From positions 1 to 44,953 of the forward strand of contig NZ_BJDZ01000025.1 of NCBI RefSeq assembly GCF_005405405.1: a stretch of DNA of 44,953 nt. Direction: 5' to 3'. This DNA comes from Lactiplantibacillus plajomi. GTDB taxonomy: Bacteria; Bacillota; Bacilli; Lactobacillales; Lactobacillaceae. Positions 1 through 18,217 of the stretch are shown here, one piece after another (within the stretch, counting starts at the first letter, position 1; each line of letters begins with the position of its first letter). A program made the position numbers and the translations under genes. Below the pieces are notes generated by a model. That model made no database searches. It was not told the DNA's origin and saw only the letters and a program-made list of their open reading frames with translations.

Positions 1-51
1 CAAGTCTCATTTAAAATCAAAATTACAAAAAAGAACCCAATTCGTAAATGA
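1..51 (+). pseudogene. C-terminal end of an ISL3-type transposase (cut by the window edge)
   Basis: Reading from base 1, frame 1 gives 16 residues beginning QVSFKIKIT, then TGA at 49-51. The same stretch recurs at 29599-29651 at the end of the decayed ISL3 copy, where one-base differences shift the frame. Only the tail is visible, so whether the gene is intact to the left cannot be judged. Confidence 0.7.
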
Positions 52-98
52 ATTGGATTCTCAAATTAGTCCTCATCAACACCGGTTGACAAAGAGCC
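1..98 (+). mobile_element. Right end of an ISL3-family insertion sequence
   Basis: Bases 73-98 end in an imperfect terminal repeat finishing TTGACAAAGAGCC. Its reverse complement (GGCTCTTTGTCAACCGG...) resembles the left end at 28763 (GGCTCTATGG...TGTTGATGG). Bases 1-90 are nearly identical to 29599-29688. The element ends 29 bases from the stop codon of the next gene, so it inserted just behind that operon without breaking it. Confidence 0.75.
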
Positions 99-127: not shown

Positions 128-2428
128 TTAGTGACTGCCGACAACCGGCTTAGTTTCGGTTGCTGGTAAGTCGTCCAAGAAATGACTGAAGCATTGCTTT
201 AAGAAGTGCACACTGCCGTCGTCGTTGATCCGACCGGCTGCGTCGAACTTCGTGCCAGCTTGTGGCAACATAAATTCGTTACCCGGCATCACGTGCGCGT
301 CAACCCCTGGTGAATCCAAGATTTGACGTAAGTTCATTTGCGCCCGAACCGTTCCTTGAATCCCAAGCGACGTCCCAACGATCATCACGGGCTTTTCTTT
401 GAATGGATGTTCCGCGCAGGATAACCATTCAATGGCACTCTTCAAAGCGGCTGGTACGGCGTGGTCGTATTCGGGAACCCCGAAGACCACCCCGTCAGCG
501 GCCTCGACCTTCGCGGCCAAGTCCTTAACGACGGCTGGTTCGCTATCTACGTCGTCTTCGTTGAACAGTGGCAGGTCCTTAATTTCGCAAATATCGAAGT
601 TAACTTCGGTTTCGAACAGGTCCTTCATGGCGTAAAGTAACTTACGGTTGTAAGACTTCGAAGCGTTCGTACCGACGATTGCCACAATGTTGGGTTCGTC
701 ATCACCCGCAGCGGCTTGCTTTTGGGCGTTTTCGCTGGCAGCCGCCCCGGCAACGAAGCCGGAAGAGATGCCCCAAGTGTTCATCATACTTGGCATGGAA
801 TCGTGACCATTGGCACCACCGATAATTTCACCGGCACCGAAGTAGTTCGCAACCGGTGCGTTCTTAGTCGTCACGAGTTGCAGGTTATCAGCGTTGACAC
901 TGTAACCACCTAAAGTCGTGGCGAAGCGGTCACGTTGTTCGATCACGTAGAAGGTGTCGCCTTCAAATTCGTGTAAGAACTTCGGATCACGGCCGAATTC
1001 GCGGTCGTGGCCATCCTTAACGTAGCCTTGGTAGTTGGCCACGGTCTTCGCTAATTCGTCGGCATCAATACCGGCCTGCTTAGCAACCGTTGCGAGGTTC
1101 CCCTTAACGAAGATCGGCCGCTTGGTTGGATCAGCGAAGAACTTTTCGATTTCTTCAGCGGTGAAGTCGTGTAGGACTAGTAAGTCGTAAACTTTCTTCC
1201 AAGTCCGGGCATCCATTACGAGGTAGGCGACCTTGTCGTCCTGCTTCAAGATGGCGTTCCGGAAAGCCGTATAAACGTTGGATTCGTTAACGATGCGGTC
1301 ACCCTTACTGTTAACGTAAATGGCGCCCATGTCAGTGGCTTCCTTAGAAGCGTAAGTGGTTAACTTGGCCACGCCGGGTTCAACTTCGACCCCGTGTGGA
1401 TAGATCTTATACCAACCCAGGTCGTGGGTCTGTAAATCTAAATTCTGGTTAAATTGATAAGCGTCACCAGTTGACGTCATCGGGCCGTAGTAGTCAATCC
1501 CTTGACTTTCGTCACCGCGCATCTTCTGGCTGGCACCGTGACCACCAGCGGCTAATACGACCGATTTCGCCTTAATCTTAACGTCGCCGTTATGTTGCTT
1601 GGCCACCACGCCGTTTAATTCGTGACGGCGATTGAAAGTTAATTCTTCAACCCGGGTATCCACTAAAATTTGGCCACCGGCAGCTTCAAAGGCCTTTGAA
1701 ACCTTTTGAATAAATTCAAAGCTGCTGGCACTTGGTAATTCGATTTGCCGTTCGATCGAGTGTTCCGGCGTTTGGGTCTGCGCTTTTTGGTAGTGCAAGT
1801 CGGCAAACTTGCTAATAAAGTCGATGGCATCACCAATGTTATGCACCATTAAGTCCGTTAAGGCCGGGTAGTTGGTTTCCAAACTTTCACGGCTAACGTC
1901 TTGGGCTAGCATTTCGGGCGTATCGTGATTGTTATCAAAGATTTGGGCGGACACGTTCGAACCGGTACCAACCACGTTGGAACCGTTCAAAATCGTAGCG
2001 CCACCTAAATAACCGTTCTTTTCAACTAAGGTCACCTTTTGACCCATTGAGAGTGCCCGGCAAGCGGCAACCAAGCCAGCTTCCCCACCACCGATGACTA
2101 ACACGTCGGTCTTAATATGCTTCGTTTGACTCGCTTGTTCCTGTTTAGGCGTTGGCGTCACGTTGATACCGGCCGCTTCAACGGCCTTATCAGCGGAAGT
2201 CAGGAGCGCCTTGGTCATAACGGTGGCACCACTAATGGTGTCAACGTTAAATGATTGTTCCGTAATAATATTATGTTTGAGTTTATCGATCACCTGATTA
2301 AAGATTCCGGACGTTTCGGAATGCTTTAAAATCTTTAAATCTTCAATTTTATTATCCTGCAGGTCAACTTCATAGTTGATGATGCCGTTATGGCCCATCG
2401 CTTGACCCGTTACTTGTTGTTCACTCAT
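128..2428 (-). CDS. Three-domain flavin reductase: FMN_bind, FAD_binding_2 and NADPH-dependent FMN reductase domains
   Basis: The protein is 766 residues with no signal peptide, so cytoplasmic. Residues 1-90 are an FMN_bind domain with the ApbE flavinylation motif D63-TISGAT, predicting covalent FMN on T69. Residues ~105-575 are a fumarate-reductase-like FAD domain with the dinucleotide motif VIGGGEAG at 111-118. Residues ~585-750 are an NADPH-dependent FMN reductase (flavodoxin-like) domain. Electrons could run from NAD(P)H through FMN_red and covalent FMN to FAD and an unsaturated acid, as in soluble fumarate/cinnamate/acrylate reductases. The C-terminal FAD motif reads GGANGHDSMPSM instead of the GSNRLGGNA seen in the paralogue at 16460-18217, so the usual substrate-binding Arg is missing and fumarate is unlikely. 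The start overlaps the apbE stop (ATGA). Operon partners suggest a shikimate- or dehydroshikimate-type substrate (inference). Confidence 0.85.
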   Translation of the reverse strand: MSEQQVTGQAMGHNGIINYEVDLQDNKIEDLKILKHSETSGIFNQVIDKLKHNIITEQSFNVDTISGATVMTKALLTSADKAVEAAGINVTPTPKQEQASQTKHIKTDVLVIGGGEAGLVAACRALSMGQKVTLVEKNGYLGGATILNGSNVVGTGSNVSAQIFDNNHDTPEMLAQDVSRESLETNYPALTDLMVHNIGDAIDFISKFADLHYQKAQTQTPEHSIERQIELPSASSFEFIQKVSKAFEAAGGQILVDTRVEELTFNRRHELNGVVAKQHNGDVKIKAKSVVLAAGGHGASQKMRGDESQGIDYYGPMTSTGDAYQFNQNLDLQTHDLGWYKIYPHGVEVEPGVAKLTTYASKEATDMGAIYVNSKGDRIVNESNVYTAFRNAILKQDDKVAYLVMDARTWKKVYDLLVLHDFTAEEIEKFFADPTKRPIFVKGNLATVAKQAGIDADELAKTVANYQGYVKDGHDREFGRDPKFLHEFEGDTFYVIEQRDRFATTLGGYSVNADNLQLVTTKNAPVANYFGAGEIIGGANGHDSMPSMMNTWGISSGFVAGAAASENAQKQAAAGDDEPNIVAIVGTNASKSYNRKLLYAMKDLFETEVNFDICEIKDLPLFNEDDVDSEPAVVKDLAAKVEAADGVVFGVPEYDHAVPAALKSAIEWLSCAEHPFKEKPVMIVGTSLGIQGTVRAQMNLRQILDSPGVDAHVMPGNEFMLPQAGTKFDAAGRINDDGSVHFLKQCFSHFLDDLPATETKPVVGSH

Positions 2429-3378
2429 AAATAAAACACTCCTTTACGTCGCGGTTGCAATCCACTTGTAACCGTCACTTGTTGCTGTCGATCAATAAAT
2501 ATTGCTTCGGTATCGGGTAACTGCTCGATAAGCGTCGCACCCGCTATCGGACCTTTAAAATAGGTGACCGTCGATAAAACTTCGGCTAGTTCTGACTGAG
2601 CCGTAATAATTGTGACCTGGTCGACCTGATTTTCTACCGGGTAACCGGTTTGTGGATCCAGAATATGGTGGTAACGGTGGCCGTTAGCCTCAAAGTAACG
2701 TTCAAAAATACCGGACGTTACCACGGTCCGCGCCGGGGTTTGTACCTGTAATAACGGGTACCCGCGCGGGGCAGCTGGGGCCTGGACGCCAACTTGCCAA
2801 CGACCATCCGGACTTAACGGATTGTCTCCGAGGAGCTTAACGTTCCCACCGAGGTTCACAATGGCGTGCCTCACACCCGCGGCTTGCAACTGGCTCACGA
2901 TTTGATCCGCAAAGTAACCCTTCGCGATCGCACCGAGGTCGAGTTGCATGCCGGAACGCTTCAGGAAAACGCTACGCTGCGTAGCGTTTAAGGCCACTTG
3001 ATCGAGAGTCATCAAATGTAAGCGTTCCTGAACCGCCGCCTGGTCCGGGACCTGCTGACCACCGAAACCGATCCGCCATAATTTAACCAGCGGGCCAATC
3101 AACACGTTAAAGCTATCCGCGTGCTGACGGGAATAGGCCAACGCATCTTGAATCAGGGTAAAGCAGGCTGGGCTGACCGTAACGGGGTACTGACCCGCAG
3201 CCTGGTTCACGGCACTTAGTTCTGAATCCGGCCGGTTGACTGAGAAAACCCGGTCCATGTTTTCTAAGTAATCGTAGACGGCCTCAACGACCGCCTGACG
3301 TGGTTCAAAGAGGGTCAGGGAAATGACGGTCCCCATCATGGTGAATTGTGACACGTACTTTTTTTGTGGAACGGTCAT
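2425..3378 (-). CDS. apbE: ApbE-type FAD:protein FMN transferase
   Basis: This enzyme moves FMN from FAD onto a Thr/Ser of a partner protein. The 317-residue sequence shows the family motifs LDLGAIAKGY (147-156), NLGGNV (175-180), TSGIFERYF (221-229) and HHILDPQTGYP (237-247). The usual metal-binding AD near residue 265 is AE here, a conservative change. There is no signal peptide or lipobox, unlike exported ApbE proteins, so it should act in the cytoplasm. Its stop overlaps the start of the flavoprotein gene that carries the D-x-x-SGAT acceptor site, which makes that protein its likely target. The start follows AAAGGGCG. Confidence 0.92.
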   Translation of the reverse strand: MTVPQKKYVSQFTMMGTVISLTLFEPRQAVVEAVYDYLENMDRVFSVNRPDSELSAVNQAAGQYPVTVSPACFTLIQDALAYSRQHADSFNVLIGPLVKLWRIGFGGQQVPDQAAVQERLHLMTLDQVALNATQRSVFLKRSGMQLDLGAIAKGYFADQIVSQLQAAGVRHAIVNLGGNVKLLGDNPLSPDGRWQVGVQAPAAPRGYPLLQVQTPARTVVTSGIFERYFEANGHRYHHILDPQTGYPVENQVDQVTIITAQSELAEVLSTVTYFKGPIAGATLIEQLPDTEAIFIDRQQQVTVTSGLQPRRKGVFYL

Positions 3379-3393
3379 TTCCGAACGCCCTTT

Positions 3394-4155
3394 CTAGTTA
3401 AGTTTCAAATCTTCAAGTTCGGGACGCAGGTGATCCAACGCAATTTGCCCCGGTGCGGAAGCCGCACCCACGGTTGCAAATGATAAGCAGGAGCCGAAGA
3501 CTTCGCCAGCTAACCGGGAAACCTTGCCTAAATCGCCCATCGACATCGTAATAACTGGTTGACTCAACGTCTTGTGGGCGGCGTTAGTCGCTTGCAGTAA
3601 CGTTAAAACGTCATCGGCTGACTGTGGCATGACGGCCATCTTCGCAACGTCGGCCCCAAAGTCGACCATGCTGGTCAAGCGCTTCACGATTTCAGCCTTA
3701 CCCGGCGTCTTGTCAAAGTCGTGGTTACTCATGATTACAACGACTTTGGCGGCGTGAGCCATTTTTACCAAGCCCCTAACGGCCGCTTCATCGTGATAAC
3801 GTTCAACGTCCAACGCGTCGGTGAATTCACCGGCCAAGACGTTTTCGCAAACCTTGAAATAATCGGCGTCGCTAAGTTCGAGGTTACCGCCCTCACCCTT
3901 AGTCCGGAAAGTCGTCAACAAGGCGATCGAACCGAGGGCGCTGCGTAACCACCGCCCCGTTTGTTGGAGTTGTTCAACGTCGGTCACGCCCTCAAAGAAG
4001 TCGATCCGCCATTCAACAACGTCCGGGTCAGCGGCCTTAATTGGATCGACGGCGGCTAAAATATCCGCGGTCGTTTTGCCGGTAATCGGCACGGCCAGTT
4101 TTGGTCGGCCAGTACCCAGACTTAAATTACGTAATTTAACGACTGGTTGATTCAT
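3394..4155 (-). CDS. aroD: 3-dehydroquinate dehydratase, type I
   Basis: Interconverts 3-dehydroquinate and 3-dehydroshikimate through a Schiff base. At 253 residues it has the full set of class I features: EWRIDFF (48-54), H145 in SNHDFDKTP, the Schiff-base lysine K172 in DVAKMAVMP, R214, and the phosphate/substrate loop AASAPGQI near 231-238. The start lies inside the end of the upstream MFS gene (20-base overlap), preceded by AGGGGGC. In this operon (quinate/shikimate dehydrogenase, transporter, flavin reductase) it probably works in the catabolic direction rather than in aromatic amino acid synthesis. That role is inferred from context, because type I enzymes serve both. Confidence 0.93.
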   Translation of the reverse strand: MNQPVVKLRNLSLGTGRPKLAVPITGKTTADILAAVDPIKAADPDVVEWRIDFFEGVTDVEQLQQTGRWLRSALGSIALLTTFRTKGEGGNLELSDADYFKVCENVLAGEFTDALDVERYHDEAAVRGLVKMAHAAKVVVIMSNHDFDKTPGKAEIVKRLTSMVDFGADVAKMAVMPQSADDVLTLLQATNAAHKTLSQPVITMSMGDLGKVSRLAGEVFGSCLSFATVGAASAPGQIALDHLRPELEDLKLN

Positions 4156-5365
4156 GAGTCGTTGCCCCCTTTTGATTTTTTTCGAATAACCGGTAGTACC
4201 GAACGGTGATCAATACGGCGAGGACGAATCCAATCAACGCGATGATCACGTCAAAGAGGAAGATCCCGGCTAAGTTATCAGACATCATCCCGGTAAACAA
4301 CGGGATCGTAAACGATGCGATTGAACCGGCCGTATAGAACGCCCCGGTAATGGTCCCCTTACCTGATGGGAAGAAGGTCGACATGACGGTCAACCCGAGT
4401 TGCATCACCCCACCGGCAGCGGAGAAGCCGACAACGAATGACATGATCGAGCACATCAATGCCGTTGGGAAGAGGTACATCAATAACAGTGAAACGAATG
4501 AAATCAAGGTGTAAACGCCCAAGAATTGAATTTCTTTAACGGCACGTTTTGCCAAGGCAGCGGTGACCAACACGCAGACGATCGAGCCGATACTGTAATA
4601 ACTGATCAACGCCCGCGAACTGGCATCACCCATGCCGGCAACCTTAGTCCCGTACTGGCTGAGCCATTGACTGACCAAGTAGAAGGTCGCTTGCGAAACA
4701 TAGCCGTATAAGATGAAGAGCGTCCCATCAAGCCATAAGTTACCCTTAGAAACTGGTTTATCTTCGGCTTCAGCGGTCTTTTCTTCAACCTCAGCATCCT
4801 GGTTGGCAACCGGGAACTTGCCGGCCGTTACCATGAAGATCAGGTTAACTAACAGTACGACGATACATAATACGAAGGACCAGCCGTACCAGATGCTGTT
4901 GGCCACTAAGAAACTAACGAATAGCGGTAACCCGAATTGACCAACGGAAATGAACGCTTTGATGATAACGTTGGCCGTCCCCTTTGATTCTGGGAACATT
5001 TCCATTAAGGCCGGGTAAGTCCCGGAATCCAAGAAGGAGTTGGCGATTCCCGCTAAGATCCCGAAGATGTAAGCCACCGCGATCGAGGTACTGAGCAGAA
5101 TCCCACCGAAGAATAACAGGTAGGTGATGACCCCTAAGATAACGAACGGCTTACGACCGAACTTATCGGATAACCACCCGGAAACGAGTAAGACGATTAA
5201 CCGCCCGATCCCGAGGGATGAAATAACGACGGCGACACCACCGGTCGTTGTGTTCCAGTGCTTAGCCAACGCCTCCATATTTTGCGCCAAGATGATGACG
5301 CCCATCCCATGAATGAAGTAGTTTAAATATAGACTGATGGCAGTCGGCATATACTTATTTTTCAT
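4136..5365 (-). CDS. MFS transporter, probable quinate/shikimate-type acid permease
   Basis: A 409-residue major facilitator protein with about 12 hydrophobic segments. The loop 2-3 signature is GWLSDKFGRKPF, after the SSLGIGRL stretch, and a hydrophilic central loop (around VEEKTAEAEDKP) separates the two halves. It is clearly paralogous to the MFS protein at 7417-8625; the segments around GILAGxANSFLDSGTYPALME are nearly identical. It lies between aroE and aroD in one operon, overlapping aroD by 20 bases. The substrate is inferred only from these neighbours; quinate, shikimate or their reduced products could be imported, exported or exchanged. Confidence 0.85.
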   Translation of the reverse strand: MKNKYMPTAISLYLNYFIHGMGVIILAQNMEALAKHWNTTTGGVAVVISSLGIGRLIVLLVSGWLSDKFGRKPFVILGVITYLLFFGGILLSTSIAVAYIFGILAGIANSFLDSGTYPALMEMFPESKGTANVIIKAFISVGQFGLPLFVSFLVANSIWYGWSFVLCIVVLLVNLIFMVTAGKFPVANQDAEVEEKTAEAEDKPVSKGNLWLDGTLFILYGYVSQATFYLVSQWLSQYGTKVAGMGDASSRALISYYSIGSIVCVLVTAALAKRAVKEIQFLGVYTLISFVSLLLMYLFPTALMCSIMSFVVGFSAAGGVMQLGLTVMSTFFPSGKGTITGAFYTAGSIASFTIPLFTGMMSDNLAGIFLFDVIIALIGFVLAVLITVRYYRLFEKNQKGATTHESTSR

Positions 5366-5391
5366 ACTAAAACCTCATTAATTATCTATAA

Positions 5392-6276
5392 TTATTTAGC
5401 GTCGTCATCGAATAAGATGTGGCGAATGTAATCAACCGGCATATCTTTATTAGTCCAAAGCTTGAAAGCAGCGGCCCCTTGTTCGAGCATCATGCCTAAG
5501 CCATTGAAGACGTGCTTCAAACCAGCTTGCTTAGCCACCTTCATCAACTTCGTTTCGCGAGGTGCGTAAACCGTATCGAAGACCACTAAATCAGGGTTGT
5601 TGAACCAGCTCGGGTCGTCAACTAAGGTCTTGTCTTCAAGCGGCTTCATACCGACACCGGTTGAATCCGTGTAGATGAACGAGCTTTGGATTTCTTTCTT
5701 GAAATCGTCGCGGTCTTCTAATTCGTGTAAGGTTGCATGGCAGTCGGTCTTTTCGTTGATCAACTTGACGTTGCGCTTAGCGTTTTCCCATTCAGCATCG
5801 TGTTGGTTGAAGATCGACATTTCCTTGACCCCGTCCAAAGCAGCTTGAACGGCAATCGCAGTTCCGGCACCACCGGCACCCGCTAAGGTCATCTTTTGAC
5901 CACGGATATCGATCCCTTCATCGTCCAAGGACTTCATGAAGCCGATTCCGTCGGTCGTGTAACCGGTTAAAATACCGTCATCGTTAACCACCGTGTTGAC
6001 CGCACCGACCATTTCAGCAGCTGGGTCTAACTTATCCAATAACGGAATAACCTTTTGCTTGTTAGGCATCGAAATGTTAGAACCACGCATGTCTAACGTG
6101 CGAATTGATTGAATTGCTGAAGGTAACGTATCGTTATCCACTTCGAATGCCAAGTATGCGTAATTTAATCCTAATTTGGCAAAAGCGTTGTTATGCATGG
6201 TTGGTGACATCGAGTGCCGAATCGGATATGCCATTAACCCAATCAATAAAGTGTGTCCATCAATACGTTCTGTCAT
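5392..6276 (-). CDS. aroE: Quinate/shikimate dehydrogenase (AroE/YdiB family)
   Basis: An NAD(P)-dependent dehydrogenase acting on shikimate and/or quinate, 294 residues. The substrate site shows YPIRHSMSPTMHN near the N-terminus, the catalytic lysine in NISMPNKQ, and the catalytic Asp in TTDGIGF. A Rossmann motif AGAGGAG follows, and the C-terminal glutamine lies in MLEQGAAAFKLW. The SMPNKQ form is like YdiB (quinate/shikimate dehydrogenase) more than strict AroE. It is the first gene of the operon with MFS, aroD, apbE and flavin reductase, and is divergent from a LysR gene. RBS TAGGAGTGG precedes the ATG. A catabolic role is favoured by context. Confidence 0.9.
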   Translation of the reverse strand: MTERIDGHTLLIGLMAYPIRHSMSPTMHNNAFAKLGLNYAYLAFEVDNDTLPSAIQSIRTLDMRGSNISMPNKQKVIPLLDKLDPAAEMVGAVNTVVNDDGILTGYTTDGIGFMKSLDDEGIDIRGQKMTLAGAGGAGTAIAVQAALDGVKEMSIFNQHDAEWENAKRNVKLINEKTDCHATLHELEDRDDFKKEIQSSFIYTDSTGVGMKPLEDKTLVDDPSWFNNPDLVVFDTVYAPRETKLMKVAKQAGLKHVFNGLGMMLEQGAAAFKLWTNKDMPVDYIRHILFDDDAK

Positions 6277-6311
6277 GCTAATCCACTCCTAAAAATTTAA
6301 TTTTTTGATGA

Positions 6312-6359
6312 TTTGTTACTCAATTCACTTGCTATCGTAACAAAATGCTTTAGTATAAT
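6312..6359. promoter_or_regulatory. Divergent aroE/LysR control region with inverted repeat TTTGTTAC-N17-GTAACAAA
   Basis: Perfect 8-base arms lie at 6312-6319 and 6337-6344. The left arm is part of TTTGTTACTCAATTCA (6312-6327), which recurs exactly, on the other strand, at 8652-8667 in front of the second MFS gene. TATAAT at 6354-6359 is the likely -10 of the LysR gene, with a weak -35 (TTGCTA, 6329-6334). The arrangement suits a LysR-type activator site. Binding is inferred. Confidence 0.65.
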
Positions 6360-6420
6360 AAATATGAATGCTTCGTTTAATCAATTGAATTTTTTTATGA
6401 ATGAAAGGGGTATCAGTAGT

Positions 6421-7350
6421 TTGAACCTTAGGCATTTAGAATTTTTCAAAGAATTAGCACACACCCAACACATGGCTAAAGCGGCTGATAATCTCGGGAT
6501 TTCTCAACCTTCCTTAAGTTACGCCATCAAAAAGCTAGAAAAAGAAATTGGCGTGCCATTATTTGAGCCCGACGGCCGTAACATCAAGTTAACCCCGATT
6601 GGGGCGGTCTATTTAAAGTATATTACCGCTAGTTTAAACGATTTATCACAAGGTAACGAGCTCGTCCAGCAGTTGATGAATCCCGATACCGGGCACATTA
6701 ACCTCGGTTTCACTTACACAATGGGCCAGCAACTGGTTCCCGAACTCATCACCCAGTTTCAACTCGACCCGCAAAATCAAGCGGTTAGTTTTTCGCTTGG
6801 TCAGGGGAATTCTAACGAGTTACTCGCCGCCCTCGCTGACGAAAAGTACGACCTGGTTCTCGCCTCCAATGTGGATAAACTCGGTGAACAGCCAACTGCT
6901 AACCTGTTCGACTTCATTCCGATTGTGCAGCAGGCCATCGTTGCCGCGGTTCCGACCAACCACCCGTTGGCGTTGAAGGAAAGCTTGACTGTCCGCGACT
7001 TGGCCCCCTACCCAATGATTCTATTTTCCAAAAACAGTGGGCTACGGCCGTTGATCGACCAGGTCCTCTCCCAGGCGCACGTCAAGCCCAAAGTTGCTTA
7101 CGAAGTCGAAGAAGACCACACGATGGCCGGATTCGTCCGCTTTAACTTGGGCATCGCCATCATGCCAGACCTCCCACTACTCGATCAAAGTAGCGTCTTG
7201 CTAAAGCCACTCGAAGACCAACCGCTCCAGCACCAGATTTACCTGATTGTTAAGCGTAACCACTTCTTAACGCCCTCCGTGCACCGGTTCCAGGAGTTCA
7301 GTCGGAACTACTGCTGGCAAAACTACACGAATAAAAAGCGCCTGCTATAA
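6421..7350 (+). CDS. LysR-family transcriptional regulator
   Basis: A 309-residue regulator starting at TTG 6421 (NLRHLEFFKELA...). Helix-turn-helix residues ~13-38 read AKAADNLGISQPSLSYAIKKLE, and a LysR substrate-binding domain follows (~85-300). Earlier in-frame ATGs reaching to 6313 are rejected: the longest would begin upstream of the -10 at 6354-6359, and TTG 6421 has GAAAGGGG ten bases before it and gives the standard LysR N-terminus. It is divergent from the aroE operon and next to a second MFS gene that shares its candidate operator. By family precedent it would sense a pathway compound such as quinate or shikimate. Confidence 0.9.
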   Translation: MNLRHLEFFKELAHTQHMAKAADNLGISQPSLSYAIKKLEKEIGVPLFEPDGRNIKLTPIGAVYLKYITASLNDLSQGNELVQQLMNPDTGHINLGFTYTMGQQLVPELITQFQLDPQNQAVSFSLGQGNSNELLAALADEKYDLVLASNVDKLGEQPTANLFDFIPIVQQAIVAAVPTNHPLALKESLTVRDLAPYPMILFSKNSGLRPLIDQVLSQAHVKPKVAYEVEEDHTMAGFVRFNLGIAIMPDLPLLDQSSVLLKPLEDQPLQHQIYLIVKRNHFLTPSVHRFQEFSRNYCWQNYTNKKRLL

Positions 7351-7356
7351 GCACGC

Positions 7357-7419
7357 AAAAATGAGCAACCCGCCTAACGCCTTTATAAAAAGACGTTAAG
7401 CAGATTGCTCATTTTTTTA
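7357..7419. terminator. Bidirectional Rho-independent terminator
   Basis: AAAAATGAGCAA...TAACGCC pairs with GACGTTA...TTGCTCATTTTTTT around a short A-rich loop. A-run and T-run flank both sides, so it can stop the LysR transcript and the converging MFS transcript. The right T-run overlaps the MFS stop codon. Confidence 0.85.
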
Positions 7420-8625
7420 CGCTTGTTCAATTTTTGACGCTACTTGCGGTGCGCTAGCAAGGCCGAGCACAATCACGCTGCAGACGACCCCGATTAAGGC
7501 AATCGCCACGTCGAACCACATAATCTCTAAAATACCAACGTGCGAAATCCAAGCGGTAAACACCGGGATCGTGAACGACGCCAAGCCGCTCGCCGTGTAA
7601 TAAATCCCCGTAATTCGGCCCTTAGCCTTCGGAAACGTATTACTCATGATGGTCAGCCCCAGTTGCATGACGCCACCAGCGGCCGAACAGCCGATTACAA
7701 ACGAACTGATCAGCGCTACGTGCCAAGCCGGGATTAAGGTCAACGCCAGCAGGGCCAATAACGAAATGACGGTATCAGCCAACATGAACCACACCGGTTT
7801 GATCACCCGTTCGACCAACAGGGCGGTCACGACCACCCCCAAAATTGAGCCAACACTGTAAATGCTGACCAGCATCCGGGCGTGGACGAGGTTCAAATCG
7901 ATCACGTCGGTACCGAACTTGGTTAACCACTGGCTGACCAGGTAGAAGATCGCCATTGAAACGTAGCCAAAAATTGTTAAAACGATCCCTAGGACCAGTT
8001 TGCGCGGCGTCCAGTGTTCTTTAACCGGCGTCCCGGCGTCCGTCTGTTCCGTCCGTACCGTCGAAAGTTTCGGAAAACGGCGCGCACGTAGAAAGACGAA
8101 GTTCGCCGCCATCAAAACCACGCATAGCAGAAATGACCAGCCGTACCACAAGTGAAAATGGTCGAGCCCAGCCACCAGGATCGGTAAGAGTAGCTCGCCG
8201 ATCGAAGCGAAGGCCTTAATCATAATGTTAGCGGTAGCTTGCCGCTGCGGATAAAGTTCCATTAACGCCGGGTACGTCCCGGAATCAAGGAAGGAATTGG
8301 CCATTCCGGCGAGGATCCCGAAGAAATACGCGGTATACATGTTCGGTGAAAGGACGATACCCGCAAAAAAGAGCGTGTAGGTCGCAATCCCGATTTGCAC
8401 AAATACCTTCCGGCCCCAACGGTCAGAGAAGGTCCCCGCAAGGTACAGCACCAGCAACCGGCCAATTCCTAAAGATGAAATGACTAACGAAACGCCAGCA
8501 TCGCCAACGTGCCATTGCCGGCCCAAAACCGTCATGTTCTGTGCGAGAATCACGATGGCCATGCCGTGAACGAGGTAGTTTAGGTACAAACAAACAGTAG
8601 TCTTAATTCGCTCTGTCGATGTCAT
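7417..8625 (-). CDS. MFS transporter, paralogue of the aroE-operon permease
   Basis: A 402-residue, 12-segment major facilitator protein. It shares with the protein at 4136-5365 the runs LYLNY near the N-terminus, SSLGIGRL, FSDRWGRK (loop 2-3 signature) and FGILAGMANSFLDSGTYPALME. ATG 8625 is preferred because GGGTGA lies 5-6 bases upstream and it aligns with the paralogue; an in-frame GTG at 8634 is possible. It is monocistronic, convergent with LysR, and carries the 16-bp candidate operator upstream. Two related permeases may handle uptake and product export, or two related acids. The substrate is inferred only. Confidence 0.85.
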   Translation of the reverse strand: MTSTERIKTTVCLYLNYLVHGMAIVILAQNMTVLGRQWHVGDAGVSLVISSLGIGRLLVLYLAGTFSDRWGRKVFVQIGIATYTLFFAGIVLSPNMYTAYFFGILAGMANSFLDSGTYPALMELYPQRQATANIMIKAFASIGELLLPILVAGLDHFHLWYGWSFLLCVVLMAANFVFLRARRFPKLSTVRTEQTDAGTPVKEHWTPRKLVLGIVLTIFGYVSMAIFYLVSQWLTKFGTDVIDLNLVHARMLVSIYSVGSILGVVVTALLVERVIKPVWFMLADTVISLLALLALTLIPAWHVALISSFVIGCSAAGGVMQLGLTIMSNTFPKAKGRITGIYYTASGLASFTIPVFTAWISHVGILEIMWFDVAIALIGVVCSVIVLGLASAPQVASKIEQA

Positions 8626-8651
8626 ATGAGTCACCCGTGCCTTGTTAAATT

Positions 8652-8667
8652 TGAATTGAGTAACAAA
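8652..8667 (-). promoter_or_regulatory. Copy of the LysR-associated 16-bp operator upstream of the second MFS gene
   Basis: The minus strand reads TTTGTTACTCAATTCA, identical to 6312-6327, and lies 27-42 bases upstream of the MFS start. A second half-site TTAACAA follows within 12 bases on the same strand, so the spacing differs from the aroE/LysR site. The rest of 8635-8923 has no gene; apart from this site I see an inverted repeat and a terminator, listed separately. Confidence 0.6.
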
Positions 8668-14014: not shown

Positions 14015-14743
14015 CTATTCAAGCACGGCTTGGCGGTACTGAATCGGTGACTGACCAACCTTCTTACGAAAAATCCGGCTGAAGTAGTGGGCGTCCTCGT
14101 AACCGATCTTATTAGCAATCGCGCTGACATTGTATTGCAAGATCGGACTCCGCAATAATTCGCGGGCCCGCCGCATCCGGGTATCGATCAGGTACTCGGA
14201 AAAGGTTAGCCCGTACGCCTGCTTGAACTGCTTACTAAGGTAGGTCTCACTCACAAACAGACAGCCGGCCACTTGCGATAACGTCAAGTCCTTTTCAAAG
14301 TAGTGGGTTTCGATGTAGGACTTCACCTGCGCCGCTAAACTGACCGGTTGAGCCGGCTCGTCCGGCTGGTCAGCCAGCTTGGTGGCGAAGGTCGTCATCA
14401 GCTTTTGCAAGTCGCTACGCGGAATTGGCTTTAATAAGTAGTCGAGCACGTTCAACTTAATGGCCCGTCGCGCAAAGTCGAAGTCGTCAAAACCACTGAT
14501 GATCACGATCAACGTCTGCGGATAGCGGTGATTGAGTAGTTCGATCAGGTCCAACCCGTTTAAGTCACCCAGATTAATGTCGATCAGAGCGGCCGCAATC
14601 GGGTGCTGTTCGAATTCGTGCAAGGCAGCTTGACCACTATCAGCCGTGATGATTTCACCAAACGGGGTCGTGCTAGCTTGTAAGTAGCGCGCCAGCCCCG
14701 TCCTGAGCGCGCGTTCGTCATCAACGATCAGTAATCGTTTCAT
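14015..14743 (-). CDS. Response regulator, receiver plus AraC-type DNA-binding domain (YesN-like)
   Basis: A 242-residue regulator. The receiver domain (1-120) has the acidic pair in IVDDE, the phosphorylated Asp in ALIDINLGDLNG (near 54) and the lysine in LLKPI (near 105). The C-terminal AraC domain (~140-240) shows LSQVAGCLFVSETYLSKQFK and the second helix-turn-helix IGYEDAHYFSRIFRKKVGQSP. It overlaps its histidine kinase gene by 23 bases. The nearest likely target is the divergent flavoprotein gene at 16460. Confidence 0.93.
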   Translation of the reverse strand: MKRLLIVDDERALRTGLARYLQASTTPFGEIITADSGQAALHEFEQHPIAAALIDINLGDLNGLDLIELLNHRYPQTLIVIISGFDDFDFARRAIKLNVLDYLLKPIPRSDLQKLMTTFATKLADQPDEPAQPVSLAAQVKSYIETHYFEKDLTLSQVAGCLFVSETYLSKQFKQAYGLTFSEYLIDTRMRRARELLRSPILQYNVSAIANKIGYEDAHYFSRIFRKKVGQSPIQYRQAVLE

Positions 14744-16325
14744 TATCGAGTTCCCCCTTAATAATCGGTACCGTCACTTGGACGCTGGTCAAGTCCGGTT
14801 GACTGCGGAACCGGAGCTTAGCGTGCCCGTTATAGAACAGTTGTAGCCGGTGACAGACGTTATAAATCCCGTACCCATCGCGCCCTTCGCGGTAACTACC
14901 GTCGTTTAAGGCGGTCAGCACTGCCGGGGCAATCGGCACCCCGTTATTCGCCACCGTAATCACGAGCGTCGCGTCGGTTCCCCGTTCAGCACGAATGGTC
15001 AGCCGCCCAACCGGCTGCTTTAATGGTCGAATCCCGTGGTTAATCGCGTTTTCGACTAACGGCTGTAAGATAAAGTGCATCACCGGTTGGTCTAATAGGT
15101 CGGCGGCCACCCGCACGTCGAAGTGGGCCAACTGCGGGAAACGCACCGTTTGAATCTTAACGTAACTATTCACGTGGGCTAGTTCATCGCGTAAGCTGAT
15201 CAGTTCCTGGCCGTGGTTCAAGCCCTTGCGGAAGAAGGTACTCAGGTTTTCCAGCATGTCCACGGCCGCGTCCGCTTCACCCCCTAAAATCTGCCACTGA
15301 ATCGTATCCAAGGTGTTATAAAGGAAGTGCGGCTGAATTTGGCCCTGTAAAACCCGAATCGAGGCCTCGCGGTACTTCGCCTCATTTTCATACACCCGCG
15401 CCAACATGGTGTTGAAGGTCGTCGCCAGCGTCTGAATTTCCTGCGGCCCCTCAACCGTGGCCCGAATATCGTGCCCCCCGGCCTGAATCCGGGTCATAGT
15501 CGTCGTTAACCCCACTAACGGGTGAACGATTCGCCGCCATAAAATCAGCAGTAGACCGCCCAGTAAACCACTCACAACGAGGGCAATGACCAGCAGTAGC
15601 CGCATCATCTGTTGGGTGCTTTCGCGGAGGTCCGCTTTCTGGACGATGTAGTTGATTTTCCAGCCCGGCAGTTGGGCTAACCGCGTCGACAACAGTACCT
15701 CCCGTTGCGGGTCGATCCGCGGGGCCTTGGCTTCGCCCCCTAACAGCTCGCCACTCCCATCGTAAATCGACAGGTTATGCGCAAGCGCTTCCACTTTGGT
15801 CAACGGAACCGCGGCCGCAATGTAGGCGGTGTGGTCCGCCAGCGGTTTTGCTAAGCGGTACAGGATGATGACAATCGACTGGCGGTCCTCCTTGGACGTC
15901 AACAAATTACTGACAGTGTAAGCCTTAGCTGGCGTCCGCTGCATTTCGCGGTAGTAATCGCGGTTTTTCACCGAAAAATCGGGGTAGGTCGCCGAGTGCG
16001 ACACCCCGTCGGTCGACACGAGTCGCAGCGACACGTAGTTATCCAAGTCAAAATTCGTGACCGCGTCGGTTTCCTTAAAGAACTGCGCGCGGGTGTACGT
16101 CCGTTGCGCCGGCAAGTTCGCCAATAAGCGTAGCTCGGACAGCCGTTCCCCGAACCAGCCGTCAATTTGATTGGCGCGGTCGTCCACCATTTGCTGGGTC
16201 ATCGACGTATTGATTGGTAACACGTTGCGGGTCATTTCCAGGCGCATGGCCACGTAGATCATCCCAATCAAGGTAATTGAAATCAGTAAAAACAAACTGA
16301 CAATTTGCGTTTTCAGCGAGCGCAT
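14721..16325 (-). CDS. Sensor histidine kinase, YesM-like with extracellular sensor domain
   Basis: A 534-residue membrane kinase. There is one transmembrane helix near residues 8-28, an extracellular Cache-like domain (~30-240), a second helix (~242-268), HAMP, and a His_kinase domain with the phosphorylated His in QIQPHFLYNTLDTIQW. The ATPase domain has LVENAINHGI and DGYGIYNV. ATG 16325 is chosen because GGAGGG lies six bases before it; the ATG six bases upstream touches the RBS. The large outside domain suggests an extracellular ligand, plausibly the substrate of the neighbouring lipoprotein reductase (inference). Confidence 0.92.
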   Translation of the reverse strand: MRSLKTQIVSLFLLISITLIGMIYVAMRLEMTRNVLPINTSMTQQMVDDRANQIDGWFGERLSELRLLANLPAQRTYTRAQFFKETDAVTNFDLDNYVSLRLVSTDGVSHSATYPDFSVKNRDYYREMQRTPAKAYTVSNLLTSKEDRQSIVIILYRLAKPLADHTAYIAAAVPLTKVEALAHNLSIYDGSGELLGGEAKAPRIDPQREVLLSTRLAQLPGWKINYIVQKADLRESTQQMMRLLLVIALVVSGLLGGLLLILWRRIVHPLVGLTTTMTRIQAGGHDIRATVEGPQEIQTLATTFNTMLARVYENEAKYREASIRVLQGQIQPHFLYNTLDTIQWQILGGEADAAVDMLENLSTFFRKGLNHGQELISLRDELAHVNSYVKIQTVRFPQLAHFDVRVAADLLDQPVMHFILQPLVENAINHGIRPLKQPVGRLTIRAERGTDATLVITVANNGVPIAPAVLTALNDGSYREGRDGYGIYNVCHRLQLFYNGHAKLRFRSQPDLTSVQVTVPIIKGELDNETITDR

Positions 16326-16346
16326 GGTCATCCCTCCGTTTTGTAT

Positions 16347-16367
16347 ATTATTTCACGAAATGTACCG
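16347..16367 (-). repeat. 21-bp repeat, copy 2 (kinase/flavoprotein intergenic region)
   Basis: Near-identical to 13936-13956 (two differences). On the minus strand it overlaps a TAATAT that could be the kinase -10. On the plus strand it lies 52-72 bases upstream of the flavoprotein -10, a normal place for an activator site. It is a candidate site for the adjacent AraC-type response regulator. Confidence 0.55.
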
Positions 16368-16404
16368 AAAAGTCCACCTGATGTCAGGATTGTCCAACGA
16401 AAAA

Positions 16405-16425
16405 ATAGCGCTTCCCCGCTATACT
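16405..16425 (+). promoter_or_regulatory. Probable -10 of the lipoprotein reductase gene with a short inverted repeat
   Basis: TATACT at 16420-16425 is a good -10, but no convincing -35 lies 16-18 bases upstream, which suits activator-dependent transcription. ATAGCG (16405-16410) and CGCTAT (16417-16422) form an inverted repeat overlapping the -10. The GAGGAGG RBS follows before ATG 16460. Confidence 0.5.
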
Positions 16426-16459
16426 AAGGGTAAATCAAGTCTTTAGAGGAGGCCACATT

Positions 16460-18217
16460 ATGAAGAAACGTTGGTGGGGACTATTATTCACAGTCATTGC
16501 AATTTTTACGTTGACCGCCTGTTCATCCGGTAGCAAGAACCAAACGGTCGAGGGGACCGGCTCCGGGAAGCACGGGGACATCAAGGTGTCCGTTAAGTTC
16601 AAAGGTGACAAGATCGACAGTATCAAGGTACTGAGTCAAAACGAAAATAAGGTGTTGGCAAAACCGGTATATAGCCAGTTGAAAGACACCATCGTGGCGA
16701 AGAACTCGACCGACGTCGACGTCGTCAGTGGTTCAACTGCCACTAGTAAGGGCTACATCGCTGCCGTTAAGGACGCCGTTAAAAAGGCCGGCATTTCACT
16801 AAAAGCCGTTAAAGTAAAGTCCAGCAGTAGCGACCCGAAAGTTGCCAAGGTCAATAACTACGATGTCGTCGTCGTTGGCTCCGGCGGTGGCGGCTTTGCC
16901 GCGGCGATTGAAGCCAAGCAGGCCGGCAAAAAAGTCGCTATTTTGGAAAAAATGCCAACGGTTGGTGGGAACACCCTGATTTCCGGTGGTGAAATGAACG
17001 CGCCCGGCAACTGGGTTCAAAAGAAGCTGGGTATCAAGGGCGACTCGGTTAAGAGTTACTATAAGGACACCATGAAGGGCGGCGACAACCTCGGTGACCC
17101 GAAGATGGTCCACATCTTAGCGAATAACGCGCTCGGTTCCGCCAAGTGGTTGCGCGACGACGTTCACGTGAAGTTCTTAGACGACCAACTCTTCCAGTTC
17201 GGTGGCCATAGCTATAAACGGGCGCTGATTCCCGTTGGCCACACCGGTCAGGAACTGATTACTAAGCTGGATGCCAAGGCAAACTCGCTCAACATCCCGA
17301 TTTACGTGAATACCAAGGCCACTTCGTTAATTAAGAAAAACGGCCGGATCACCGGGGTTAAGGCCCGTTACGAAGACAAGAAGAACGTCACCTTTAACGC
17401 TAAGAAGGCCGTCATTTTAACGACCGGGGGCTTTGGTTCCAACGTTAAAATGCGGACGAAGTATAACAAGGAATACGACAAGCGCTACAAGTCCACCGAC
17501 ACGGCCGGCACGACTGGTGACGGAATCGTCATGGCGCAAAACGTGGGTGCGAAGTTGACCAACATGAAGTACATTCAAACCTACCCAATTGCCAACCCGA
17601 AGACCGGGATGATCTCACTGCTCGCCGACACCCGTTTTGACGGCGCCATCCTAGTTAACCAAAAGGGACAGCGCTTCGTTGAAGAATTGGAACGGCGCGA
17701 CGTTATTTCTAAAGCCATCTTGAAGCAACCTGGTGGCTACACGTACCAAATCTGGAACGACAAGATCGACGGAATTTCCAAGACCAAGGCCGCACATAAA
17801 GCGGAATACAACGAATTGATCAAGGAACACCTCCTTTACAAGGCCGATACGATCGACGAATTAGCGAAGGACGTGGATATCGACCCAGCCGCACTGAAGG
17901 CCACCATCAAGAAGGTCAACCAGTACGCGAAGACTGGTAAGGATAAAGACTTTCATCACCGCGCCGGATTGGTTTCGCTTGAAAAAGGCCCTTACTACAT
18001 TGAAAAGGCCGTCCCATCCGTCCACCACACCATGGGTGGCCTGGTCATCAATGATAAGACCGAAGTGTTGAACACTAAGGGACAAGCAATTCCTGGCTTG
18101 TACGCTGCCGGTGAATTAACCGGGGTTATCCAAGGCTCTAACCGCCTTGGTGGTAACGCCATCGCCGACATCATCACCTTTGGTCGGATCGCCGGTAAGA
18201 CTGCCGGTAACCTTTAA
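16460..18217 (+). CDS. Flavinylated lipoprotein reductase (FMN_bind plus fumarate-reductase FAD domain)
   Basis: A 585-residue exported lipoprotein: signal peptide with lipobox LTA-C21. The FMN_bind domain (~30-110) carries flavinylation motif D87-VVSGST, predicting FMN on T93. The FAD domain (~133-585) starts DVVVVGSGGGG and keeps the fumarate-reductase-like catalytic motifs ERRD, HHTMGG and GSNRLGGNAIAD. Homologues of this layout in Gram-positive bacteria are extracellular reductases fed by membrane quinones or NADH dehydrogenase through flavin carriers. The Arg-containing motifs fit a small carboxylate acceptor such as fumarate or urocanate; the acceptor is unknown. The only ApbE in this window looks cytoplasmic, so another ApbE must flavinylate it. 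It is divergent from the YesMN-type two-component system. Confidence 0.9.
   Translation: MKKRWWGLLFTVIAIFTLTACSSGSKNQTVEGTGSGKHGDIKVSVKFKGDKIDSIKVLSQNENKVLAKPVYSQLKDTIVAKNSTDVDVVSGSTATSKGYIAAVKDAVKKAGISLKAVKVKSSSSDPKVAKVNNYDVVVVGSGGGGFAAAIEAKQAGKKVAILEKMPTVGGNTLISGGEMNAPGNWVQKKLGIKGDSVKSYYKDTMKGGDNLGDPKMVHILANNALGSAKWLRDDVHVKFLDDQLFQFGGHSYKRALIPVGHTGQELITKLDAKANSLNIPIYVNTKATSLIKKNGRITGVKARYEDKKNVTFNAKKAVILTTGGFGSNVKMRTKYNKEYDKRYKSTDTAGTTGDGIVMAQNVGAKLTNMKYIQTYPIANPKTGMISLLADTRFDGAILVNQKGQRFVEELERRDVISKAILKQPGGYTYQIWNDKIDGISKTKAAHKAEYNELIKEHLLYKADTIDELAKDVDIDPAALKATIKKVNQYAKTGKDKDFHHRAGLVSLEKGPYYIEKAVPSVHHTMGGLVINDKTEVLNTKGQAIPGLYAAGELTGVIQGSNRLGGNAIADIITFGRIAGKTAGNL

Follow-up and report, generated by a model that had tools for sequence, protein, structure and literature searches.

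Which genes enable lactobacilli to reduce the plant acids quinate and shikimate, an activity that has been known for decades? The question is raised by a set of seven genes (positions 128-8634) in a 44,953-nucleotide stretch of Lactiplantibacillus plajomi DNA (contig NZ_BJDZ01000025.1, positions 1 to 44,953), hereafter called the window, which is part of a 2.76 Mb genome (99.99% complete) whose nearest relatives are Lactiplantibacillus species. On the minus strand, genes for an AroE/YdiB-type dehydrogenase, an MFS transporter (MFS1), a type I 3-dehydroquinate dehydratase (AroD), the flavin transferase ApbE and a FMN_bind/FAD_binding_2/FMN_red fusion protein (FRD for short) are closely packed, with a divergent LysR gene and, beyond it, a second transporter gene (MFS2), all seven exactly as an earlier, sequence-only reading of this DNA had listed them (Table 1). 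Among the matches listed in the open-licence PMC literature, none assigned a gene to quinate/shikimate reduction by lactobacilli. We propose, with a probability of roughly 0.6, that FRD is an NAD(P)H-dependent reductase that uses 3-dehydroshikimate or shikimate as an electron sink within a quinate/shikimate regulon.

The flavoprotein gene travels with aro genes

One genome per species was scanned with the FRD protein alone, so that neighbouring genes were not built into the search. AroE (at least 70% identity) was encoded at 33 of the 36 loci obtained and AroD at 32, with AroD fused to FRD at one further locus; LysR (at least 50% identity), MFS and ApbE were found at 30, 29 and 24 loci, respectively. 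These genes occur in at least three orders: AroE-MFS-AroD-ApbE-FRD is one arrangement, AroD-ApbE-FRD-AroE-MFS is found in Lentilactobacillus and Companilactobacillus, and FRD comes first with AroE and AroD behind it in Ligilactobacillus, Tetragenococcus and Loigolactobacillus, while megaplasmid pMP118 of L. salivarius carries LysR, a TIM barrel protein, a short-chain dehydrogenase/reductase (SDR), FRD, AroE and AroD in this order. At the Ligilactobacillus pobuzihii locus (L034), a single open frame of 825 amino acids encodes an FRD-AroD fusion, with AroD at the C-terminal end and a full-length DHquinase_I match; when 397 Lactobacillaceae genomes were scanned for the fusion, 54 matched, two by fragments, and one, identical to L034, covered the whole of it. 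The association of FRD with aro genes exceeds chance, and the tie between the flavoprotein and AroE/AroD drawn in the sequence-only reading is borne out by linkage over many genera, by shuffled gene orders and by one natural FRD-AroD fusion.

The FRD profile was matched at E ≤ 1e-100 in 28 of 395 Lactobacillales genomes, and flanks were taken for 20 of these 28 matches, ten each from the near type and from a distant type (29-35% identity). Among the ten further near-type loci, of which at least three repeat members of the 36-locus set, AroE and AroD stood together at six; at the distant-type loci AroD was nearby in seven and AroE in six of ten. An N-terminal Oxidored_FMN (old yellow enzyme, OYE) domain stands in for the C-terminal FMN_red domain of the window FRD in six of the ten distant proteins and is likely their NAD(P)H input; the other four (L120, L121, L123 and L128) have neither domain. 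In a tree of 51 rows, which has an arbitrary root and several very long paralog branches whose joins may be false, all 30 aro-linked FRDs fell inside one clade of 34 (Shimodaira-Hasegawa-like approximate likelihood ratio test, 97), apart from canonical fumarate reductases and from the L. plantarum candidate for the hydroxycinnamate reductase HcrB (L072/L082, which lies beside a lone FMN_red gene).

Several further observations were made at these loci. Broken genes were seen in L018 (LysR, MFS1 and AroD), L027 (ApbE), L035 and L036 (FRD in both), and may reflect either a system that is dispensable in some niches or sequencing errors. The distant relative at L121:8028-9863 keeps the family signature, has a lipoprotein-like leader and lacks aro neighbours in about 8 kb; it is possibly an extracellular version of FRD. 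A pair of TIM-barrel (AP_endonuc_2) and SDR genes is conserved beside FRD genes (L006:341-3986, L030:5947-7641, L140:6289-7981 and others), sometimes with two extra AroE-like genes, whereas a tblastn search for the two neighbours, confined to the window, gave no match. In L. plantarum and others these TIM-barrel, SDR and extra AroE-like genes are candidates for a 3-dehydroshikimate dehydratase (protocatechuate branch) or a hydroaromatic dehydrogenase, and the L. plantarum work of Whiting and Coggins reportedly includes an NAD-dependent hydroaromatic dehydrogenase as an enzyme of its own.

The operon and the second transporter gene share a 15-bp element

The 15-bp element TGAATTGAGTAACAA is conserved in the stretch that separates LysR from the operon, regardless of which operon gene comes first, and exact copies occur twice in the genome of the window, before AroE and before MFS2. 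It recurs at these two places across genera: at up to two mismatches, a scan of the 36 loci and the window gave 53 matches, five of them elsewhere and 48 preceding either the operon (in the window and at 29 loci) or MFS2 (in the window and at 17 of the 18 loci with this gene). Where LysR is encoded, the element precedes the operon at 28 of 30 loci (exceptions L029 and L038), compared with one of the six loci without LysR (L034). Relative to the genes they precede, the two copies are oppositely oriented, a feature more in keeping with a DNA-binding site than with an RNA element; LysR is the probable regulator of both transcription units, acting through this putative binding site. When the whole genome was scanned with the same tolerance, six matches were obtained for the element and seven for a reversed control pattern; on the strength of this control the four copies with two mismatches, considered as further regulon members, were dismissed as background. 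The genes and their element are real and conserved, and the set has the make-up of a quinate/shikimate catabolic regulon (AroE/YdiB, AroD, a transporter and LysR). The word regulon in the sequence-only reading is supported by the sequence common to the operon and the second MFS gene.

A terminator-like hairpin of 13 pairs lies directly 3' of FRD (31-62, minus strand), although a promoter and terminator scan of the region gave site numbers, hairpins included, that were not above those of shuffled sequences.

Table 1. Coordinates of the genes, motifs and regulatory elements of the locus within the window.
Feature	Position	Strand	Basis or remark
FRD, FMN_bind/FAD_binding_2/FMN_red fusion reductase, 766 amino acids	128..2428	-	domain matches
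Residues 540-552 of FRD, NGHDSMPSMMNTW; Ser544 at the position of the substrate-binding Arg560 of UrdA	773..811	-	alignment
Signature EQxxRFATTLGG, FRD residues 497-508, in place of the His-His-T-M-G-G of fumarate/urocanate reductases	905..940	-	
Tyr386 of FRD, at the position of the proton-donor Arg (Arg402 of Fcc3, Arg411 of UrdA)	1271..1273	-	alignment
D-x-x-S-G-A-T flavinylation motif, FRD residues 63-69 (D63-T-I-S-G-A-T69)	2222..2242	-	alignment
ApbE, FAD:protein FMN transferase	2425..3378	-	4-bp overlap with FRD start
AroD, type I 3-dehydroquinate dehydratase	3394..4155	-	
MFS1, MFS transporter, probable quinate/shikimate importer	4136..5365	-	
AroE, YdiB-type shikimate (quinate) dehydrogenase	5392..6276	-	
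15-bp regulon element TGAATTGAGTAACAA	6313..6327	-	36 bases upstream of AroE
LysR-type regulator	6421..7350	+	listed open reading frame 6313-7350; start at TTG 6421 by ortholog alignment
MFS2, MFS transporter, second member of the regulon	7417..8634	-	
15-bp regulon element, second copy (exact)	8652..8666	+	17 bases upstream of MFS2

FRD has the features of a flavinylated reductase

FRD comprises FMN_bind (residues 12-83), FAD_binding_2 (108-544) and FMN_red (580-724) domains, and the sequence features by which ApbE-flavinylated reductases of this kind are recognised are all present: an FMN_bind domain with D-x-x-[ST]-G-A-[ST], a FAD_binding_2 domain and a flavin domain of the NAD(P)H-input type. 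Within the flavinylation motif, D63, S66, G67 and A68 are conserved in all 35 aligned FRD rows and T69 in 34. The sequence-only reading had ApbE flavinylating FRD; the motif and the adjacent ApbE gene are indeed there, and from them we infer a covalent flavin mononucleotide (FMN) that the neighbouring enzyme would attach. This ApbE, one of three copies in the genome, has no lipoprotein leader in its sequence. The FMN_red domain (OYE in part of the distant branch) points to reduction driven by NAD(P)H.

An AlphaFold2 model of FRD based on a 27-row alignment had a mean predicted local distance difference test score of 80.6, with low-confidence stretches that include parts of the active-site region (residues 310-322, 337-357 and 500-505), and it cannot decide the substrate. 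Foldseek searches with this model returned urocanate and fumarate reductases as the best matches, followed by ketosteroid and cyclohexanone dehydrogenases, as well as the domain in PDB entry 2lfc.

The active site departs from that of fumarate and urocanate reductases

We take His504 and Arg544 to be catalytic positions of the flavocytochrome c3 fumarate reductase Fcc3. Equivalences between FRD and Fcc3 or the urocanate reductase UrdA were drawn from pairwise and profile alignments, which agreed, with UrdA roles and most Fcc3 numbers taken from PDB titles and excerpts of PMC7921117. The two histidines of Fcc3 and UrdA are replaced by Ala503 and Thr504, the carboxylate-binding arginine by Ser544, and Glu378 and Arg381 of Fcc3 by Lys362 and Thr365; Fcc3 His365 corresponds to Tyr343 in most alignments, its placement differing, with a gap, in one other. 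Tyr386, Arg390, Glu497, Gln498, Arg501, Thr504 and Ser544 are invariant in the 35 aligned near FRD rows, and the distant branch keeps Glu497, Gln498, Arg501, Thr504 and Ser544 in all ten rows. A loosened form of the EQxxRFATTLGG signature, composed after inspection of the rows and admitting the observed variants, was present in all 45 near rows (no more than 42 of them distinct) and all ten distant rows, a total of 55 that includes at least three duplicates, and in none of 17 paralogs from the genome of the window and that of L. plantarum. The HcrB candidate (830 amino acids) retains the canonical catalytic Arg/His/Arg set, and five paralogs besides it retain the HH/HY-TMGG motif.

To judge from these alignments, the FRD active site is different from the usual carboxylate-binding one of fumarate, urocanate and HcrB-type enzymes, and the loss of the fumarate/urocanate-reductase residues makes FRD unlikely to be a fumarate reductase or HcrB. 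As a sign of an enone substrate the loss of the Arg/His/Arg triad is only suggestive, because Arg390 or Arg501 could bind a carboxylate.

A putative pathway from quinate to dihydroshikimate

Among PDB entries, the window AroE is matched best by 3tnl, presumably from Listeria, and by YdiB-type quinate/shikimate dehydrogenases. In the pathway that we propose, the MFS proteins would bring in quinate and shikimate, AroE would interconvert quinate with 3-dehydroquinate and shikimate with 3-dehydroshikimate, and AroD would dehydrate 3-dehydroquinate to 3-dehydroshikimate. With FMN attached to Thr69 by ApbE, electrons would pass within FRD from NAD(P)H through the C-terminal FMN_red domain and the covalent FMN to flavin adenine dinucleotide (FAD), from which a hydride would be transferred to the C1=C2 double bond of the ring of a hydroaromatic acid, most likely 3-dehydroshikimate. 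AroE could next reduce the remaining ketone to give dihydroshikimate, and one NAD(P)H would be reoxidised per acid. According to excerpts of PMC13204703 citing a 2015 study, quinic acid may be converted to shikimic and dihydroshikimic acid and may act as a hydrogen acceptor for lactic acid bacteria; dihydroshikimate as end product fits either substrate.

On good grounds we infer the last reductive step from the sequences; the substrate, direction and cofactor of FRD are putative. The electron-sink role given in the sequence-only reading is supported as far as reduction goes, by the NAD(P)H-type input domain, while for its generic alpha,beta-unsaturated acid the residue evidence indicates an active site other than the usual carboxylate-binding one, and the AroD fusion points to 3-dehydroshikimate, which that reading did not pick out as the substrate. 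Since 3-dehydroshikimate is the product of AroD (AroE makes or uses the same compound), since FRD and AroD are fused at one locus and since L122 has AroD without AroE nearby, we lean modestly towards this compound over shikimate. The operon would probably import quinate and shikimate, with a dedicated flavin enzyme disposing of spare electrons on them. Bolder, and in our estimate somewhat short of an even bet, is the claim that the FRDs form a family in their own right, which reduces a hydroaromatic acid (3-dehydroshikimate) at an active site differing from those of fumarate, urocanate and hydroxycinnamate reductases, that its members occur in several families of Lactobacillales, swap FMN_red and OYE domains and were once fused to AroD, and that they supply the missing gene for quinate/shikimate reduction in lactobacilli.

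Genome context

The genome of the window encodes shikimate kinase, prephenate dehydrogenase, 5-enolpyruvylshikimate-3-phosphate synthase, chorismate synthase and an MFS-chorismate mutase fusion in one gene run. A search of this genome for 3-dehydroquinate synthase gave no match (the same search was positive in 11 of 14 controls), and the operon AroE is its sole Shikimate_dh_N match, compared with 0 to 4 such genes per genome among 21 genomes of the genus. The lack of a synthase match and the single shikimate dehydrogenase suggest that the operon may also supply shikimate for the synthesis of aromatic amino acids, and that the cell depends on imported quinate/shikimate or aromatic amino acids. 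The fusion gene (L069:10871-12313), which lies among the aro genes, encodes an MFS transporter with an attached chorismate mutase domain of type II. The transporter portion shares 42% identity with MFS1, so the fusion protein may serve as a shikimate/quinate importer coupled to aromatic synthesis. Elsewhere in the window (14015-18217), an AraC-type response regulator and a histidine kinase lie opposite a FMN_bind/FAD_binding_2 protein of 585 amino acids with a lipoprotein-like start, in which the HHTMGG motif and the canonical Arg residues are kept; judging by sequence, it is probably a second flavinylated reductase, extracytosolic and with its own sensor.

Alternative explanations

Several observations weigh against our proposal. 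ApbE is missing from 12 of the 36 loci, three near loci (L026, L032 and L036) have no AroE at 70% identity or above, and the FRD-AroD fusion has been seen in a single species. One of the ten further near-type loci offers no more than an AroD fragment, and at three others the available sequence holds no aro gene (L138 and L139 have about 8 kb of flank, and one of the three is on a contig of 8.4 kb); in the distant branch, no aro gene occurs within the flanks of about 7-8 kb at L121, L123 and L127, and L122 has AroD without AroE in the flank seen. The FMN_red domain is missing from 11 of the 35 aligned FRD rows, and a search for a standalone FMN_red gene in the neighbourhood of FRDs without the domain found none. 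Column 386 holds Asn and column 390 Leu in the distant branch in place of Tyr and Arg, and Tyr is found at column 386 in 5 of the 17 paralogs as well. The replaced residues could also signal a quite different substrate, and a plain quinate/shikimate assimilation gene set would look alike but for FRD.

Within our proposal, as a sub-case rather than an addition to it, FRD could act on shikimate directly and give dihydroshikimate in one step. The product named in the excerpts of PMC13204703 is what this would yield from quinic or shikimic acid, and the AroE at 33 of 36 loci would make the shikimate; however, FRD lacks the residues used in binding and protonating ordinary unsaturated carboxylates, the AroD fusion points one step upstream, and AroD (32 loci and one fusion) is as constant a neighbour as AroE. 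We regard direct action on shikimate as unlikely, if a serious contender. More doubtful is a mainly assimilatory operon that makes shikimate from quinate to feed aromatic amino acid synthesis, with FRD as a side branch or as a means of detoxifying 3-dehydroshikimate. The absent DHQ_synthase match, the single Shikimate_dh_N gene and the lower-half aro genes with their transporter-mutase fusion would all be accounted for, but a covalent-flavin reductase with its own ApbE, aro-linked over many genera, would be left unexplained, and four Shikimate_dh_N genes occur in 8 of the 21 genus genomes, so that a missing second AroE would not be the common reason for the operon if the extra copies have the role we assume.

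That FRD reduces hydroxycinnamates, namely caffeate freed from caffeoylquinate, is very unlikely in our view. The HcrB candidate does have the same three kinds of domain, and the likely L. plantarum counterpart of FRD is induced by a plant phenolic extract according to excerpts of the literature; yet the operon has no esterase, a separate HcrB-like gene (L043) is present in the same genome, residues kept by the HcrB candidate are missing from FRD, and excerpts of a review (PMC10295242) name the L. plantarum homologs of Par1 as lp_0952 and lp_0055, not lp_3490 and lp_3491. Hydroxycinnamate reductase was discarded as an identity for FRD, which lies outside the HcrB clade, lacks the HcrB Arg/His/Arg set and has aro neighbours. 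Marginally less probable still is an oxidative role, in which a cyclohexanone ring would be desaturated towards an aromatic acid: the 3-ketosteroid and cyclohexanone dehydrogenases also returned by Foldseek share the fold, but the FMN_bind and FMN_red/OYE input domains suit NAD(P)H-driven reduction, and fermentative hosts would need electron sinks, not sources. Least probable of all is a soluble fumarate reductase, as lp_3491 is read in excerpts of a transcriptome paper. Against the family-level similarity to flavocytochrome c stand the neighbouring aro genes and the replacement of Glu378, Arg381, Arg402, His504, His505 and Arg544 of Fcc3, with Tyr343 at His365 in most alignments, and catalytic residues, clade and neighbours together led us to reject this identity.

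Relation to published data and to known systems

Available excerpts report that lp_3490 and lp_3491 of L. plantarum rise with cranberry proanthocyanidins (PMC8004764) and that carrot juice raises lp_3491, which was there assigned to a citrate-to-succinate route regenerating NAD (PMC4895336). From their descriptions there (FMN-binding protein, EC 1.3.5.4), these genes probably belong to the L. plantarum version of the operon, although the tags are two and the L. plantarum genome examined has a single, fused gene. The fumarate reductase label on this likely counterpart is probably wrong, and our proposal for FRD calls into question its use to explain NAD regeneration in plant juice. The operon offers a concrete gene set for quinate/shikimate reduction with a proposed role for each gene, and with FRD the flavinylated reductases gain a clade in which the catalytic residues are replaced. 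The same label is attached to the clamp domain of the L. plantarum ortholog, which spans FRD residues 349-499 (E 8e-79) and is a structural-genomics entry titled fumarate reductase (PDB 2lfc).

Akin to the window, the qui operon of Listeria, with its regulator QuiR, is a LysR-controlled AroE/AroD set; we know of no flavoprotein of the FRD family there. The NADH:acrylate and NADH:cinnamate reductases Ard and Crd of Vibrio reportedly join OYE or FMN_red input modules to FMN_bind and FAD_binding_2, modules that resemble those of part of the distant FRD branch, and to our knowledge they are without aro linkage. HcrB of L. plantarum (lp_1425) is NADH dependent and LysR controlled, according to excerpts of PMC10295242. 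Like FRD, its candidate combines FMN_red, FMN_bind and FAD_binding_2, but the FMN_red domain is N-terminal, identity to the FRD core is about 25% over the FAD part, and no AroE or AroD match is found in the surrounding 10.5 kb. UrdA and Fcc3 share the FAD_binding_2 fold with FRD, and Tyr343 of FRD aligns with the UrdA tyrosine that we take as Tyr373; the UrdA residues given in the excerpts of PMC7921117 (Arg411, the His520 region and Arg560, which binds substrate) face Tyr386, Ala503-Thr504 and Ser544 in FRD. In the Klebsiella system (excerpts of PMC12052999), a cytosolic ApbE flavinylates a soluble, FMN-containing reductase, the arrangement that we propose for FRD, with fumarate as the substrate in place of a hydroaromatic acid.

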